Origin: Clostridiales bacterium UBA3277
Lineage (GTDB): Bacteria > Bacillota > Clostridia > Oscillospirales > Oscillospiraceae
Assembly (NCBI GenBank): GCA_002362145.1
Contig: DETX01000028.1
Coordinates: 11,181 to 17,640, forward strand
DNA: 6,460 nt
Reading direction: 5' to 3'
Part shown: positions 1,534-6,437 of the stretch, one piece after another
Position numbering within the stretch: the first letter of the stretch is position 1
Layout: every line of letters starts with the position of its first letter
Position numbers and translations under genes: made by a program
The notes under the pieces: model-generated
The model's database searches: none
Told to the model about the DNA's origin: nothing
The model's input: only the letters and a program-made list of their open reading frames with translations

Positions 1534-3030
1534 ATGGAACTGAATTTCGCGAAAAAAGATGTTGCCTGCCTGGACGCGGTCCTCCGGGAGATTCAAAACA
1601 GTGAGCAGACCCAGACCATCCAGATTCCCGACGGGCTGCCGGACGTGGGGAAGGTCCTGGCCGCCTGGGGCCAGTGCATCCAGCGGGGGAAGGAGTGGCG
1701 GGGCGGCAGCATCGGCTTCACCGGCGGCATGATGGTGTGGGTCCTCTACGCCCCGGAGGACGGCGGCAGGGAAATCTGCATCGACGGCTGGATTCCCTTC
1801 CAGATGCAGTGGGAGCTGCCCGGGGATACTCCGGAGGGGGACATCCGCATGAAATGTCTTACCCGGTTTGTGGACGCCCGGTCCGTCTCCCCCAGGAAGC
1901 TGCTGGTCCGGGCGGGCATGGGCGTTCTGGCGGAGGCCTGGGCACCGAAGGCGTGGTCCTTCTCCCAGCCCGCCGGTGAGACCCGGGACGTGGAGCTGCT
2001 GCAAAACACTTACCCCGTGCGCCTTCCCAAGGAGGCGGGAGAAAAGACCTTCCTCATAGACGAGGAGCTGACTCTGCCGGACACCCTTCCCCAACCGGAC
2101 AAACTCGTCTATTACCGGATGGAGCCGGTGATCACCGAGCGGAAGGTCCTGTCGGGAAAGCTGGTTTTCCGGGGGAACAGCCGGCTTCACATCCTCTACC
2201 GCAGCGGGGAGGGCTCCCTGCAAAGCTGGGATACGGAACTGTCTTTCTCCCAGTTCGCGGAGCTGCGGGAGGAGCACAGCACCGACGCCCAGGCGGAGCT
2301 TCTGCCCGGGGTGACCAGCCTGGAAGCGGAGATCAGCGACGAGGGCCGCCTGCGGCTGAAGGCCGGAGCGGTGGCCCAGTATCTCATCAGCGATTTGGAG
2401 CCCCTGACGGTGGTGGAGGATGCCTACAGTCCCGGACGGGAGACGGAGCTCCAGCGGGAGAGCCTGGAGGTCCCCGCGCTGCTGGAGAGCCGCCGGGAAA
2501 CCCTCAGCGGGGAGCAGACCCTGGGCGGTGAGACGGGAACGGCAGTGGATGTGGTTCTCCTTCCGGATTTCCCCCGGGAGATACCCACCGAGACCGGGGT
2601 GGAGCTGGAAGTGCCGCTAACCGCCCAGGTTCTCTTCTATGGGGAGGACGGGGCCCTGCGCTCCGGCACGGCCCGCTGGGAGGCCCGCCAGAGTCTGTCG
2701 TCCAGCCAGGACAGCCGGATCACAGCGCTGCCCGGCCCCGGAGAAATTCAGGTGATCCCCAGCCCCGGAGGCTTCCAGCTCCGGTCGGAGACGGCTCTGG
2801 ACTGCACCGCCAGCGCCAGCCGGGGCATCCCCATGGTGACGGGGGTGACCCTGGGGGATGTGAAGCAGAAGGACCCGGCCCGTCCATCCCTGATTCTCCG
2901 CCGGGCGGGGGCAGGGGGGCTGTGGGACATCGCCAAAAGCGCCGGCTCCACGGTGGAGGCCATTCGGCAGGCCAACGCCCTTCAATCGGAGCCCGCCCCG
3001 GGGCAGATGCTTCTCATACCCGTGCCATAG
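1534..3030 (+). CDS. SipL-like spore coat morphogenesis protein: DUF3794 (SPOCS) repeats plus C-terminal LysM
   Basis: This 498-residue protein is probably a coat-base protein at the outer forespore surface. In Clostridioides difficile, SipL has SPOCS and LysM domains and binds the SpoIVA ATPase to anchor coat and cortex. Here I see three DUF3794-like segments: about residues 30-135 (IPDGLPDVGKVLAAWG to the RKLLVRAG strand), about 199-290 (VLSGKLVFRGNSRLHILYRS, a typical SPOCS repeat), and about 353-443. A LysM-like module closes the protein (about 452-498): GLWDIAKSAGSTVEAIRQAN, then PGQMLLIPVP. The start at 1534 is chosen because AAGGAG (1518-1523) lies 10 bases before the ATG. The longer frame opening with GTG at 1321 would overlap the small gene and has no family resemblance there. 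There is no signal peptide, as expected for a mother-cell protein. It lies downstream of a sigma-E-like promoter. SipL orthology itself is inferred. Confidence 0.85.
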   Translation: MELNFAKKDVACLDAVLREIQNSEQTQTIQIPDGLPDVGKVLAAWGQCIQRGKEWRGGSIGFTGGMMVWVLYAPEDGGREICIDGWIPFQMQWELPGDTPEGDIRMKCLTRFVDARSVSPRKLLVRAGMGVLAEAWAPKAWSFSQPAGETRDVELLQNTYPVRLPKEAGEKTFLIDEELTLPDTLPQPDKLVYYRMEPVITERKVLSGKLVFRGNSRLHILYRSGEGSLQSWDTELSFSQFAELREEHSTDAQAELLPGVTSLEAEISDEGRLRLKAGAVAQYLISDLEPLTVVEDAYSPGRETELQRESLEVPALLESRRETLSGEQTLGGETGTAVDVVLLPDFPREIPTETGVELEVPLTAQVLFYGEDGALRSGTARWEARQSLSSSQDSRITALPGPGEIQVIPSPGGFQLRSETALDCTASASRGIPMVTGVTLGDVKQKDPARPSLILRRAGAGGLWDIAKSAGSTVEAIRQANALQSEPAPGQMLLIPVP

Positions 3031-3032
3031 GC

Positions 3033-3046
3033 AAAACGCCGCCGGT
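3033..3046 (+). other. Left half of a probable split intrinsic terminator
   Basis: AAAACGCCGCCGGT starts 3 bases after the stop codon of the SPOCS/LysM gene. Its exact complement ACCGGCGGCGTTTT lies about 1 kb away at 4052-4065. Placed side by side, the two would form a classic bidirectional GC-rich stem with A and T tails. No good plus-strand terminator with a T-run is left directly after the SPOCS gene; only a short CCGCC-GGTT-GGCGG hairpin (3039-3052) remains there. Confidence 0.5.
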
Positions 3047-3052
3047 TGGCGG

Positions 3053-3079
3053 GGTGTTCGTAAGACAGTATAATAAGCA
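3053..3079 (+). repeat. Left terminal inverted repeat of the cassette
   Basis: GGTGTTCGTAAGACAGT (3053-3069) is identical, inverted, to 4028-4044. After one extra base (A at 3070), TAATAAGCA matches TAACAGGCA of the right copy at 7 of 9 positions. The part TGTTCGTAA recurs in direct orientation near 3157-3165. Confidence 0.75.
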
Positions 3080-3261
3080 AAAGGCGTTACTTTCGAGGTC
3101 ACGCCTTTTGCCTTGGGGGGGGATAGCCGCAAAGCGGCGCAAGGGATGCAATCCCTTGTTCGTAACGCAGCGCCGCAAAACGCCCCGGACATTCAGGTGC
3201 CTGGGGCGTTCAGTCTCCCAGGGCGCACAAACGGGGGTTACCACGTATAGAAGTGCGCCCT
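3077..3261. other. Hairpin-rich non-coding segment: five consecutive inverted repeats
   Basis: Five stems follow one another. (1) GCAAAAGGCGT (3077-3087) with ACGCCTTTTGC (3101-3111). (2) GCCGC (3126-3130) with GCGGC (3134-3138). (3) CAAGGGAT (3140-3147) with ATCCCTTG (3151-3158). (4) AACGCCCC (3179-3186) with GGGGCGTT (3203-3210). (5) AGGGCGCAC (3220-3228) with GTGCGCCCT (3253-3261). All are perfect over the stated arms. There is no credible gene here: the open frames on both strands lack family resemblance and proper ribosome sites. It could be a structured RNA, recombination-end structure or a set of terminators for the flanking converging genes. Confidence 0.65.
3177..3210 (-). terminator. 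Possible terminator of the peptidase gene
   Basis: Read on the minus strand, stem AACGCCCC...GGGGCGTT (extended by GG/CC with one bulged base) ends in TTTT, two of which are in the stem, followed by GCGG. It lies about 95 bases after the minus-strand stop codon. The short T-run makes it a modest candidate; the 3077-3111 hairpin, followed on the minus strand by TTATTATA, is an alternative. Confidence 0.4.
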
Positions 3262-3305
3262 TGTGCCTGTTCGACAAACTGGAATTTGTAGAGGCATTCA
3301 TTTTT

Positions 3306-3923
3306 TTATATTAAGCTAACGCTATCACCTTCAACATAAACTGCTTGTCCATCAGCAAGATGAATTTCACCTCTATCACTTGGCACCTCCATGAGTTTAG
3401 TGCCATTCGAATGGGGTATTATTGGATTATTTATAATATGTAATCCATCATCCAAATTCCCCGCTGCATACATACTTCCAGCACTTATTCCAACATATAC
3501 AAGACCATTATTAATTGCCTTTTCAATTATTCTATCAAATCCCGTTCTGACCATTTCACGACAAAGGACAGTACTTTCTCCACCACTAACAAAGACAGCA
3601 TCAAATGATTTCAATTCCTCAACGGTTAATAGCCTGGTAATCATAAAAGGTTCTTTAATATATGACGAATATGTTCTCTTGTAATCTTTTGAAAGAATTA
3701 GTTCGAGATTATATACAAGTATATTCTCATATCGAATTCCCATTAATGAAAGTTCATCAAAACATATTGCAAATCCCTCCCTTGCTCCATCCGTTTCAAT
3801 TCCAGCAGTAGGGATATAAAGTATTCTCACCTCTTCGGGTTGCTTTCCTATATCATCAAAAAATTTCTTTTTCATATCATTTGATAAGCCGCAAGATGTA
3901 AGAAACAAATGTCTTCCATTCAT
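3306..3923 (-). CDS. Peptidase S51 family protein (dipeptidase E-like serine peptidase), AT-rich passenger gene
   Basis: This 205-residue cytoplasmic protein belongs to the peptidase E / type 1 glutamine amidotransferase-like fold. Known members cleave N-terminal Asp dipeptides or process cyanophycin fragments; the substrate here is unknown. Visible features: N-terminal strand LFLTSCGLS (6-14), RILYIPTAG (33-41), the glycine turn VFVSGGEST (110-118), and the nucleophile elbow VGISAGSMYAAG (144-155) with Ser147 as the predicted nucleophile. His171 in IIPHSNG is a candidate catalytic base. Length fits the shorter members (about 200-230). The start at 3923 is chosen because GAGGAGTGA (3937-3929) lies 8-9 bases upstream and the protein begins MNGRHLFLTS; extending to 4043 adds 40 residues with no family resemblance, across the promoter. 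The gene opposes its neighbours, is AT-rich and lies between inverted repeats, so horizontal transfer is likely. Confidence 0.88.
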   Translation of the reverse strand: MNGRHLFLTSCGLSNDMKKKFFDDIGKQPEEVRILYIPTAGIETDGAREGFAICFDELSLMGIRYENILVYNLELILSKDYKRTYSSYIKEPFMITRLLTVEELKSFDAVFVSGGESTVLCREMVRTGFDRIIEKAINNGLVYVGISAGSMYAAGNLDDGLHIINNPIIPHSNGTKLMEVPSDRGEIHLADGQAVYVEGDSVSLI

Positions 3924-3936
3924 AATTTTCACTCCT

Positions 3937-3956
3937 CTACAAATCCCGATTTGTAG
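3937..3956 (-). promoter_or_regulatory. Perfect palindrome in the leader of the peptidase gene, possible operator
   Basis: CTACAAATC (3937-3945) and GATTTGTAG (3948-3956) form a perfect 9+9 inverted repeat with a 2-base centre. It lies between the -10 (3971-3976) and the ribosome site (3929-3937), overlapping its edge. It could be a repressor site or an RNA hairpin that limits ribosome access. ATTTGTAGAGG also occurs inverted beyond the gene's other end (3284-3294). Confidence 0.45.
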
Positions 3957-3970
3957 GTCTGTTCGGTTCC

Positions 3971-3999
3971 ATAGTATCACAAAACAGGATAAAATACAA
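3971..3999 (-). promoter_or_regulatory. Candidate sigma-A promoter of the peptidase gene
   Basis: On the minus strand, TTGTAT (3999-3994), a 17-base spacer, then TACTAT (3976-3971). Matches to TTGACA and TATAAT are 3 of 6 and 4 of 6, with ideal spacing. It lies within the cassette and about 50 bases before the start codon, so the passenger gene would carry its own promoter. Confidence 0.45.
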
Positions 4000-4018
4000 G
4001 AACAGACACAGCAGTGTA

Positions 4019-4044
4019 TGCCTGTTAACTGTCTTACGAACACC
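4019..4044 (-). repeat. Right terminal inverted repeat of the cassette
   Basis: On the minus strand, 4044 to 4028 read GGTGTTCGTAAGACAGT, identical to the left copy. The next nine bases, TAACAGGCA, match 7 of 9 after a 1-base gap. Confidence 0.75.
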
Positions 4045-4051
4045 GCACTTT

Positions 4052-4065
4052 ACCGGCGGCGTTTT
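4052..4065 (+). other. Right half of the probable split terminator
   Basis: ACCGGCGGCGTTTT is the exact complement of 3033-3046. In this orientation it ends in TTTT, as the 3' arm of a plus-strand terminator for the SPOCS/LysM gene would. It is now about 1 kb from its partner. Confidence 0.5.
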
Positions 4066-4068
4066 CAT

Positions 4069-4103
4069 AAAAACCGCCGTTCCGGGGGGAGCCGGAACGG
4101 CGG
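4069..4103 (-). terminator. Strong minus-strand hairpin terminator with no obvious gene
   Basis: CCGCCGTTCCGG (4074-4085) and CCGGAACGGCGG (4092-4103) form a perfect 12-bp stem with a 6-base loop. On the minus strand TTTTT follows at once (4073-4069). On the plus strand no T-run follows. No minus-strand gene lies upstream within the window, so it may insulate the cassette from antisense transcription. Confidence 0.65.
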
Positions 4104-4253
4104 CGGCAGGAAGGTCGCATGGGGGATGTCCTGTCAAATTAAGGATACGGTTTTCCAGTGTCGAAATCAAGGGAAATCCGCCGGAAGATCATTTTTTCAG
4201 GGAGCCTGCCCCGGGACAACCCGGCGAGGGGGAATTTTCCCGGGAAATAAGTT
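4104..4253. other. Non-coding stretch upstream of the CobW operon, with short palindromes
   Basis: No credible gene is seen here. Small dyads cluster near its right end: CCGGG-ACAA-CCCGG (4211-4224), GGGAA-TT-TTCCC (4230-4241), and the perfect 12-base palindrome TTTCCCGGGAAA (4236-4247). They lie upstream of the promoter, so they could be protein-binding sites. Chance or remnants of an older terminator are also possible. Confidence 0.4.
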
Positions 4254-4283
4254 TACAAAAACTTCCTTGTAGCGGTTGACAAG
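4254..4283 (+). promoter_or_regulatory. Three alternating half-sites at 12-base steps over the CobW promoter -35 region
   Basis: ACAA (4255-4258), TTGT (4267-4270) and ACAA (4279-4282) occur exactly 12 bases apart in alternating orientation. This makes two overlapping dyads, TACAA-n8-TTGTA (4254-4271) and CTTGT-n8-ACAAG (4266-4283). They cover the -35, a sensible place for a repressor. The sequence does not match the Bacillus Zur box I know, so the regulator is unnamed. Confidence 0.35.
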
Positions 4284-4295
4284 CGGTGATATAAT
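4267..4295 (+). promoter_or_regulatory. Sigma-A promoter with extended -10 for the CobW operon
   Basis: TGATATAAT (4287-4295) is a perfect extended -10 (TGnTATAAT). At 17 bases upstream, TTGTAG (4267-4272) is a weak -35, as is usual with an extended -10. A perfect TTGACA at 4276 is only 8 bases from this -10 and 13 from a second TATAAG (4295-4300), so it cannot serve as a normal -35. The leader to the ATG at 4336 is about 35 bases. Confidence 0.7.
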
Positions 4296-4335
4296 ATAAG
4301 GCAGGACAAAATTTATACAGAAGGTGTATTTTATC

Positions 4336-5490
4336 ATGACAAAAATCGATATCTACTCCGGCTTTCTGGGCGCTGGCAAGACCACGCTCATCAAAAAAAT
4401 GATCGCCGAGGGCTACCAGGGACAGAAGCTGGTCCTCATCGAAAACGAGTTCGGCGAAATCGGCATCGACGGGGGCTTCCTCCAGGACGCGGGCATCAAC
4501 ATCACCGAGATGAACTCCGGCTGCATCTGCTGCTCTCTGGTGGGCGACTTCGGCCGGGCCCTTCAGCAGGTCATCGCCGAGTACCATCCCGACCGGATTC
4601 TCATTGAGCCCTCCGGCGTGGGCAAGCTCTCCGATGTCATCGGCGCGGTGAACAAGGTCACCAATGACGAAGTGACCCTGGGCTATACCGTGGCGGTGGC
4701 CGACGCGGGGAAGGTCAAGGTCTATATGAAGAACTTCGGGGAGTTCTACAACAACCAGGTCGAGACCGCCTCCACCATCATCCTGTCCCGGACCGACGCC
4801 ATTCCCCAGGCGAAGCTGGATGCCGCCGTGGCCATGCTGCGGGAGCATAACCAGGTGGCTACCATTGTCACCACCCCCTGGGCGGAGCTGACGGGCGAGC
4901 AGCTGCTGGCCGCTATGGAGGGCAAGGCCTCCCTGGCCGCGGAGCTTGCCAAAATGGAGCTTGAGCGCCTGGCTGCCAAGGACGAGGAAGAGGAGCACCA
5001 CCATCATCATGATGATGAGGAGCATGACCATTGCTGCCATCACGACCATGACGAAGAGCATGAGCACTGCCATCATCACGATCACGACGAGGAGCACGAG
5101 CACTGCCATCACCACGATCACGACGAGGAGCACGAACACTGCTGCCATCATGACCATGAGGAAGAACACGACCACGATGAGCACTGCGGCTGCCACCACC
5201 ATCACCACCACCACGCCGACGAGGTCTTTACCTCCTGGGGCACCGAGACGGCCAAGAAATTCGACCGGGAGACGGTGGAGAAGGCCCTCCATGAGCTGGA
5301 CGAGGGTAAGTATGGCATGATCCTCAGAGCCAAGGGCATCCTTCCCGCCGCTGACGGCCCCTGGATTCACTTTGACTATGTGCCCGGAGAGTTTAACGTC
5401 CGCACCGGCGCTGCCGACGTGACCGGCAAGCTATGCGTCATCGGCTCCAAGCTGGATGAGGCGGGCATCGAGAAATTGTTTGGGGTGTAA
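4336..5490 (+). CDS. CobW/COG0523 GTPase metallochaperone with a very large His/Cys-rich insert
   Basis: This 384-residue cytoplasmic protein belongs to the G3E GTPases that hand metals (zinc, cobalt and others) to client proteins; B. subtilis YciC and zinc chaperones of the ZNG1 type are relatives. Motifs: Walker A GFLGAGKTT (9-17), ENEFGE (36-41), metal motif GCICC (62-66), EPSGVG (91-96), and SRTD (151-154) at the base-recognition position. Residues 221-293 hold 37 His and 8 Cys, mostly in five 12-residue repeats. A CobW C-terminal domain follows (about 295-384; YGMILRAKGILP, WIHFDYVPGEF). The start at 4336 is chosen because AAGGTG (4321-4326) is 9 bases upstream and the GTPase strand begins directly; a GTG at 4324 would add four residues inside the leader. 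It is co-transcribed with the next gene, 2 bases away. Zinc is the likely metal, but nickel or cobalt cannot be excluded. Confidence 0.93.
   Translation: MTKIDIYSGFLGAGKTTLIKKMIAEGYQGQKLVLIENEFGEIGIDGGFLQDAGINITEMNSGCICCSLVGDFGRALQQVIAEYHPDRILIEPSGVGKLSDVIGAVNKVTNDEVTLGYTVAVADAGKVKVYMKNFGEFYNNQVETASTIILSRTDAIPQAKLDAAVAMLREHNQVATIVTTPWAELTGEQLLAAMEGKASLAAELAKMELERLAAKDEEEEHHHHHDDEEHDHCCHHDHDEEHEHCHHHDHDEEHEHCHHHDHDEEHEHCCHHDHEEEHDHDEHCGCHHHHHHHADEVFTSWGTETAKKFDRETVEKALHELDEGKYGMILRAKGILPAADGPWIHFDYVPGEFNVRTGAADVTGKLCVIGSKLDEAGIEKLFGV
5005..5184 (+). repeat. Five tandem 36-base repeats encoding 12-residue His/Asp/Glu/Cys units
   Basis: Residues 224-283 of the CobW protein fall into five 12-residue units close to HDHDEEHEHCHH (starting at residues 224, 236, 248, 260 and 272). 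The three middle units are nearly identical in protein and very similar in DNA, which points to recent duplication. Such tracts can change length by replication slippage and are prone to assembly error. Confidence 0.85.
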
Positions 5491-5492
5491 CT

Positions 5493-6437
5493 ATGCAGCA
5501 GATTCCGGTATATGCCTTTACAGGCTTCTTGGATTCCGGCAAGACCAAATTTATCCAGGAGACATTGGAGGACCCCCGGTTTAATTCCGGTGAGAAAACC
5601 CTGCTTCTGGTCTTTGAAGAGGGGGAGGAGGAGTATGACTTCTCCACCTACCCCGGGAAAAACGTCTATTTGGAGGTTCTGGACCAGAAAACCGTCACCA
5701 CGAAGGAGCTCAGCGACCTTGCCAAAAAGTACAAGGCCGAGCGGGTGGTGGCGGAGCTCAACGGGATGCAGCAGGTGGGAGACCTCTATATGCGCTTCCC
5801 GGAGAACTGGGCAGTGGCCCAGGAGATCATGTTCGCCGATTCCACCACCATCCTGGCCTACAACGCCAATATGCGCAATCTGGTCATGGACAAGCTGGTG
5901 GGGGCCCAGATGATCGCCTTCAACCGCCTGGAGCCCGGGACGGATGTGATGCCCTTCCATAAGCTGGCCCGGGCGGCCAACCGGAATGTGGACATCCTCT
6001 ACGACTATACCGACGGCACCACCGCCCCGGACACCATCGAGGACCCTCTGCCCTGGGACATGGAGGCCCCGGTGATCACCATTAAGGACGAGGACTACGC
6101 CCTGTGGTATCGGGACGTCTCCGAGGAACCTCAGAAATACGACGGAAAGACCGTGAATTTCAAGGCCCAGGTGGCCATGCTCCGCCGGGATAAAAACGGG
6201 ATGTTTGCCCCCGGCCGGTTTGTCATGACCTGCTGCGTCCAGGATATCCAGTTCTGCGGCATTCCCTGCCGGTATGCCCAGGCGGCGGAGCTGGAATCCC
6301 GGTCCTGGGTCATGGTCACGGCTAAGGTCAGCTGTGAAAAGCACCGCCTGTACAAAGGAGAGGCGGGCCCCATGCTCACTGCTCTGTCCATAGAAAAGAA
6401 CGCCCCTCCCGCCGAACCGGACGTGGCGACTTTCTAA
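5493..6437 (+). CDS. Degenerate CobW-like P-loop protein with a YcgQ/TIGR03943-like C-terminal domain
   Basis: The 314-residue protein begins like a CobW GTPase: VYAFTGFLDSGKTKFIQ, with a valid Walker A (GFLDSGKT, 11-18) in which Asp replaces the usual Gly. Other family motifs are altered: FEEGEEEYD (41-49) stands where ENEFGE is expected, the CxCC metal motif is missing, ELNG (88-91) replaces EPSG, and FNRLEPGTD (143-151) holds the base-recognition region. From about 220 the sequence resembles the C-terminal domain of YcgQ/TIGR03943 proteins, partners of YcgR-type permeases: KTVNFKAQV, then FVMTCCVQD (243-251), SWVMVTAKV (271-279). Cysteines 247, 248, 255, 259 and 281 could bind metal. It starts 2 bases after the CobW stop with a weak GGGGTG site (5482-5487), suggesting translational coupling. 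I infer a metal-linked partner or regulator of the upstream chaperone; the C-terminal assignment is from memory of the family pattern. The last 23 bases of the window show nothing. Confidence 0.75.
   Translation: MQQIPVYAFTGFLDSGKTKFIQETLEDPRFNSGEKTLLLVFEEGEEEYDFSTYPGKNVYLEVLDQKTVTTKELSDLAKKYKAERVVAELNGMQQVGDLYMRFPENWAVAQEIMFADSTTILAYNANMRNLVMDKLVGAQMIAFNRLEPGTDVMPFHKLARAANRNVDILYDYTDGTTAPDTIEDPLPWDMEAPVITIKDEDYALWYRDVSEEPQKYDGKTVNFKAQVAMLRRDKNGMFAPGRFVMTCCVQDIQFCGIPCRYAQAAELESRSWVMVTAKVSCEKHRLYKGEAGPMLTALSIEKNAPPAEPDVATF

Follow-up and report, generated by a model that had tools for sequence, protein, structure and literature searches.

Integron cassettes are mostly single, promoterless small genes of varied function that lie beside a shared promoter and are bordered by short sites; integrons have an integrase in their platform and can hold cassettes in arrays. 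Their attC-type sites recombine as folded single strands (PMC7923331). Mobile insertion cassettes (MICs), such as MIC231 of Bacillus cereus and mic-qnrD, carry a passenger gene between inverted-repeat ends, have no transposase gene and are thought to move in trans (PMC3913671). Short, non-coding members with inverted-repeat ends (TIRs) are the hallmark of MITEs (PMC10969869), and group IIC introns use terminator stem-loops as targets and insert beside the stem-loop (PMC7923331).

The window, which is the whole stretch of 6,460 nucleotides of DNA analysed here, contains a SipL/LysM-like gene (1534-3030, plus strand; Pfam SipL and LysM), followed by an AT-rich block and by a gene for a CobW-like GTPase (4336-5490, plus strand; Pfam cobW and CobW_C). 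The block at 3048-4049 is best read as a TIR-ended, transposase-less cassette that interrupts the terminator hairpin of the sipL-like gene and was likely placed there by a trans-acting enzyme of the transposase type. Its GC content of 0.406 contrasts with 0.624 in the 1 kb on each side and falls to 31-37% in 200-base windows across 3301-4000, in agreement with the AT-rich gene between GC-rich neighbours described in the initial annotation of this DNA. The CobW-like protein carries a long His/Asp/Glu/Cys-rich insert (4990-5220) that is probably metal-binding, and a second strong terminator-like hairpin (13 pairs, minus strand) lies at 4073-4104, between the element and cobW.

The TIRs are located at 3048-3069 (plus strand) and 4028-4049 (minus strand), with outer limits uncertain by 1-3 nt. 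A repeat scan recovered the inverted repeat noted earlier (3053-3069 and 4028-4044) at 17 of 17 positions. Of the 76 ends in a consensus, 67 have G as the fourth base outward from GGTG, and the TIR is thus about 24 bp long, with the core GGTGTTCGTAARACAGT. On visual inspection, a possible resemblance of the TIR to xer/dif sites was considered. A second inverted repeat (3033-3046 and 4052-4065, 14 of 14 positions complementary) lies just outside the first. The initial annotation had placed a further repeat match inward of the ends, but the match is in fact outward. Since the rejoined flanks form a terminator hairpin, this outermost repeat is not element DNA; it is the intrinsic terminator of the sipL-like gene, split in its loop, with one half of the stem on either side of the cassette.

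The passenger gene (3306-3923, minus strand) encodes 205 residues and belongs to peptidase S51 (Pfam PF03575, Peptidase_S51, E 1.3e-18), as expected from its earlier description as peptidase E-like. A SAGS serine motif was read from its sequence, and its solved relatives include 6iru, 6a4t and 3l4e. A predicted ribosome-binding site, AGGAGT, was read at 3931-3936 (minus strand). The gene had also been credited with its own promoter and perhaps its own terminator. A candidate promoter, TTGTAT-17-TACTAT (3999-3971, minus strand), was recognized by eye in the conserved right arm, but it is weak by consensus and absent from the list produced by the promoter/terminator scan. That scan does list a terminator-like hairpin in the right arm (4026-4001, minus strand), but the three such sites barely exceed the shuffled mean of 1.7. 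A subterminal hairpin at 3077-3111 (14-bp arms, 93%) is a predicted terminator on the left side. An Rfam search of 3000-4400 with E values up to 1 returned only ctRNA_pGA1, at 24.1 bits against a gathering score of 45.

The same ends recur in pairs in other genomes. The set studied comprises 38 complete elements, namely that of the window and 37 from 27 genomes; 29 came from scans of the family, six were added after an order-wide search, and less stringent searching of eight genomes supplied the last three. They were chosen by eye from TIR scans with no fixed rule, and elements cut by contig ends were dropped. In 300 genomes of one family, a TIR 20-mer with at most one mismatch matched 68 sites, spread over 40 genomes, compared with a single site for the reversed-pattern control, which argues against chance. 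Some part of the element was matched in 68 of 300 genomes of the family of genome G002 (G002 included), a count for which the best two candidates per genome were scored and in which many matches are to the 3' module alone; across the order, 15 of 345 genomes had a match to the right arm. A record of Subdoligranulum variabile contains similar arms with a different gene between them. Two non-coding forms with the same ends, L272 (129 bp, 249-377) and L108 (206 bp, 1152-1357), also lie in terminator hairpins and are MITE forms of the family. Three contigs (G300:C71, G006:C6 and G101:C29) stop 97, 88 and 160 bases past a left TIR, and multi-copy arms thus seem to break assemblies. In viral contigs the 20-mer had no match; exact copies of the 15-mer TIR core occurred in 55 stretches, always singly and never as a pair, which was read as chance. 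A phage BLAST returned no match for the window element or its right arm, and three phage records matched L106 only over 45-66 bases.

The passengers of these elements are mostly unrelated genes. Pfam identified peptidase S51, glyoxalase, CDP-alcohol transferase, several GNAT acetyltransferases, arylamine N-acetyltransferase, NUDIX, HAD, MazG, TfoX_N, cupin, Ada, HTH, DUF2089, DUF6442 and a beta-helix protein. Peptidase S51 is found both in the window and in L167 (25% identical over 122 residues), and the glyoxalase both in L066 (by Pfam) and in L105 (by DNA). The cassette family with varied passengers that the initial annotation had guessed at therefore exists, with paired ends in 37 further complete elements that mostly carry other passengers.

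Split terminators are the usual site of the family. At most sites the flanks are mutually complementary and A/T-tailed, while the stem sequence differs from site to site. Paired stems in the first 29 elements have a mean of 15.0, compared with 8.8 for mispaired flanks, and none of 10,000 permutations reached the true mean. Rejoined flanks of all 38 elements fold with a mean of -25.9 kcal/mol, versus -13.2 (sd 4.7, n=1406) for mispaired flanks; a fold of -15 or below is attained by 36 of 38 true pairs and 448 of 1406 mispaired ones, and of -20 or below by 33 of 38 and 117 of 1406, respectively. The two exceptions at -15 are L170, for which no hairpin is rebuilt, and L263, for which it is weak. 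The six later elements alone average -24.7 against -14.5 for mispaired flanks. The number of base pairs across the join is not discriminating, with at least eight in 37 of 38 true pairs and also in 1050 of 1406 mispaired ones. Trimming of the flanks has a small effect (-25.6 untrimmed, -26.0 at best, for 5/5), and the nearly flat scan means that folding does not fix the exact ends; by eye, 2-5 bases of the loop may be present twice at some sites, as in a target-site duplication. A recheck listed further facing TIR pairs, which were kept outside all counts: hairpins are rebuilt for L108 (-22.3) and L114 (-21.8), which would count as members 39 and 40, but not for L183 (-11.1) or L266 (-6.3), whose ends have 4-5 mismatches.

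A preference for terminator stem-loops is common to these elements and to group IIC introns (PMC7923331) and could suggest an intron-like retroelement. This reading is extremely improbable: the 39 scanned cassette proteins include no reverse transcriptase, 3000-4400 has no Rfam intron match, the ends are inverted repeats, and insertion is in the loop instead of after the stem. The cassette thus stands apart from group IIC introns, which are retroelements.

Relatives of the host gene provide the comparison of occupied and empty sites that had been proposed at the outset. SipL relatives were found at five genome loci (L001-L005; 54-66% identical). In L001, L003 and L004, sipL is followed by cobW with no insert, and in L002 and L005 no cobW follows sipL within the DNA read. 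A search for syntenic empty sites in the genera of L105 and L166 yielded none that had the same terminator; the flanking genes are present there, although not side by side. All 11 loci read in the genus of G130 are without a TIR-like match, and several have, by eye, uninterrupted terminators of other sequence; three of 11 loci in the genus of G123 have a TIR-like match with five mismatches, taken as chance. These comparisons bear on the reading of the block as an immobile relic or vertically inherited segment with coincidental repeats. Such a reading could draw on the lack of a transposase in the scanned genes, but the block is missing from the same place in three relatives, the same ends surround other genes at unrelated sites, and L106 and L118, which are 95.7% identical over 1326 bases, are located in different terminators. 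It is therefore largely refuted, and we regard it as very improbable. Neither a block present everywhere at this site nor unpaired repeats, the two outcomes named in advance as contrary to a cassette, was found, which supports the interpretation as a cassette.

The initial annotation had also stated that no transposase or recombinase is present. Pfam detected neither kind of domain in 39 cassette proteins, a set that includes two from the incomplete elements L061 and L094 and does not comprise every small ORF, nor in three neighbouring proteins of the window. Among larger TIR pairs checked for a transposase, L270 encodes the beta-helix protein, and none was seen in L271 or L272. No IS with like ends was seen in the eight genomes searched for element ends. 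The cassette is likely mobile and would be moved by an enzyme encoded elsewhere.

One protein family within the elements might be considered for that role. ORFs of the small nuclease DUF559 (PF04480) lie in the left arms of L106, L110, L118, L121 (as a fragment), L127 and L184, identified by Pfam for L106 and L127 and by HMM position for the others. However, two of eight genomes (G130 and G079), both with complete elements, gave no DUF559 match, and the nuclease is also encoded outside cassettes, between palindromes (L206, L212, L214, L217 and L219). DUF559 was thus rejected as a general mobiliser, and it is improbable as the mobilising enzyme. The DUF559 genes, both within some cassettes and alone, are flanked by palindromes that by eye are REP-like. 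RAYT genes likewise sit between REPs.

Within the arms, most passengers occupy a slot between two short inner sites, GTTCGACAAACTGGAATTTG on the 3' side and CAAATTCCGATTTGT on the 5' side. In the window these are GTTCGACAAACTGGAATTTG (3269-3288, plus strand) and CTACAAATCCCGATTTG (3937-3953, plus strand), as identified by site comparison among elements; they overlap an inner inverted pair (3274-3294 and 3934-3954, 86%) that the initial annotation did not separate out. The inner slot, the nature of the outer repeat as a split terminator and the terminator loop as the usual site of the family were all absent from that annotation. The inner sites are near-palindromes, such that they are direct copies of one site and also inverted copies of each other. 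Of 33 elements, 26 have the left site (at most five of 20 mismatches), compared with none of 3300 shuffles, and 22 have the right site (at most three of 15 mismatches), compared with 1.0% of shuffles. L098, L121, L182, L270 and L272, which lack a passenger, are short or have the gene in the opposite orientation, were left out of this test. An earlier test with a stricter window gave 22 of 26 for the left site and 15 of 26 for the right. The sites are missing or poor in L096, L123, L192 and L204, as is the right site in L132, L178 and L271. The site consensus was built from the first 29 elements, which leaves only the six added later as independent; all six have the left site (0-6 of 20 mismatches), and their best matches to the right site have 3-5 of 18 mismatches. 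A strict pattern of the filled left site matched nine sites in eight of 300 genomes, while the backward pattern had no match.

Several elements are informative about the slot. The passenger-less L121 and L182 have one fused site each, and a fused-site pattern, built from those two, finds only them in 300 genomes. L105 combines the left arm of L089 (96%) with the passenger and right arm of L066 (95.6%), with the switch inside the left site. L269 contains two genes (HAD and NUDIX), a third site and a composite junction between the genes; the junction folds (-5.7 kcal/mol), but the site consensus differs from attC as described in PMC7923331. The NUDIX unit of L269 recurs in L168 (76% identical), which has a third site and one gene, with no second ORF of more than 60 residues found. 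Exchange of passengers at the inner sites is predicted from these arrangements.

Homologous recombination between the conserved arms is a fair rival for the passenger-exchange step. Under this alternative, the outer mobility would be as proposed above, the passengers would be swapped through the arms, and the inner sites would be leftover or regulatory. Arms that are 93-96% identical despite different passengers (L166 and L168, L105 and L089) are similar enough for homologous exchange, and a deletion between short direct repeats (CAAATT) could account for the fused site of L121 and L182. However, the same sites border passengers in several unlike arm types as well as catA13 on a plasmid, and L269 has a composite site between two genes. 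We consider the alternative possible but rather unlikely.

The DNA between the left subterminal hairpin and the left inner site is a structured 3' module (3119-3264, minus strand), delineated by a 25-sequence alignment with pair counts and by its occurrence on plasmids. Its conserved hairpin (3221-3260) adjoins the left inner site. Pairing holds in 96.5% of its cells, and a double change is seen in 27 cells compared with 7.2 in shuffled data (reached in 0 of 500), although the hairpin was predicted on the same 25 sequences as were used for the pair tests. Neither the number of pairs with a double change (4 versus 3.0; 147 of 500) nor that of further pair types (13 versus 11.8; 145 of 500) exceeds the shuffles.

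The 3' module matches seven plasmid records, four from Campylobacter, two from Subdoligranulum and one from Pusillibacter. It adjoins the cargo of tnpV elements (L244-L247); tnpV is annotated on the opened plasmid records L244 and L245, and a recombinase is annotated beside it on L244. We take these tnpV/recombinase elements to be Tn4451-like. The Campylobacter jejuni plasmid L247 has catA13 immediately flanked by inner sites, one left and one right; the inner sites were not found on L245 and L246. Additionally, the left arm of the L166 type is 86-88% identical to the module near the cargo of the tnpV elements, and the right arm shows 82-92% identity to the tnpV end and the DNA beyond, with the homology stopping at the TIR (position 1097 of 1111). 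Since in the L166 element (4429-5539) the right arm corresponds to the end of the tnpV gene up to the TIR, this element seems to have captured element-border DNA.

The mechanism that we propose builds on what is directly supported, that is the ends, the type of target, the varied passengers, the site-bordered slot and scanned genes free of recombinases. A trans-acting enzyme of the transposase type would recognize the element ends together with a hairpin loop, which may be chosen through folded or cruciform DNA. The subterminal hairpins of the element (3077-3111 and 4001-4026) would restore termination and so could make insertion nearly harmless. The promoter in the right arm would drive whichever gene fills the slot, and passengers may be exchanged by recombination at the inner sites in the manner of gene cassettes. 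A bolder reading, possible but less than probable, is a two-level, integron-like system of gene capture in anaerobic gut Clostridia. Its platform of promoter, structured 3' module and att-like sites would take up promoterless single-gene cassettes; an enzyme that acts in trans and recognizes folded DNA would let the whole platform jump into terminator loops; and mobilisable plasmids and elements would draw cargo, catA13 among it, from the same slot. Many genes are followed by terminator loops, which should be close to neutral as targets, so that insertion there would be a quiet way to add expressed genes. Should the slot function as predicted, Clostridia would possess gene cassettes of a kind separate from the classical integrons, and the same slot is linked to a chloramphenicol-resistance gene (catA13) on a plasmid of Campylobacter. 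The element ends (AGNNGGGTGTTCGTAARACAGTTAA), together with the slot sites and the hairpin, provide a search handle for further passengers and for the missing enzyme.

No published account of gene cassettes in terminator loops was recognized in the open-access literature, most subscription journals lying outside that search. The family resembles integron cassettes in its apparently promoterless, small and varied genes, the shared predicted promoter, the short bordering sites and the two-gene L269 with its foldable junction. It differs in the sequence and length of the sites, in usually having one gene and in the TIRs that wrap the whole; moreover, because the scanned proteins include no integrase and the site consensus differs, it was not filed as an integron cassette. 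The tnpV elements have arm homology in common with it up to the TIR, but on L244 they carry a recombinase, which the cassette lacks. L272 and L108 are MITE-like in the sense of PMC10969869, whereas the window element, at about 1 kb and with a gene for 205 residues, is not. By form it is a mobile insertion cassette, with inverted repeats present and a transposase absent, and it is distinguished from the MICs by insertion in a terminator loop, inner sites that border a slot for the passenger, a structured 3' module and many unrelated passengers.
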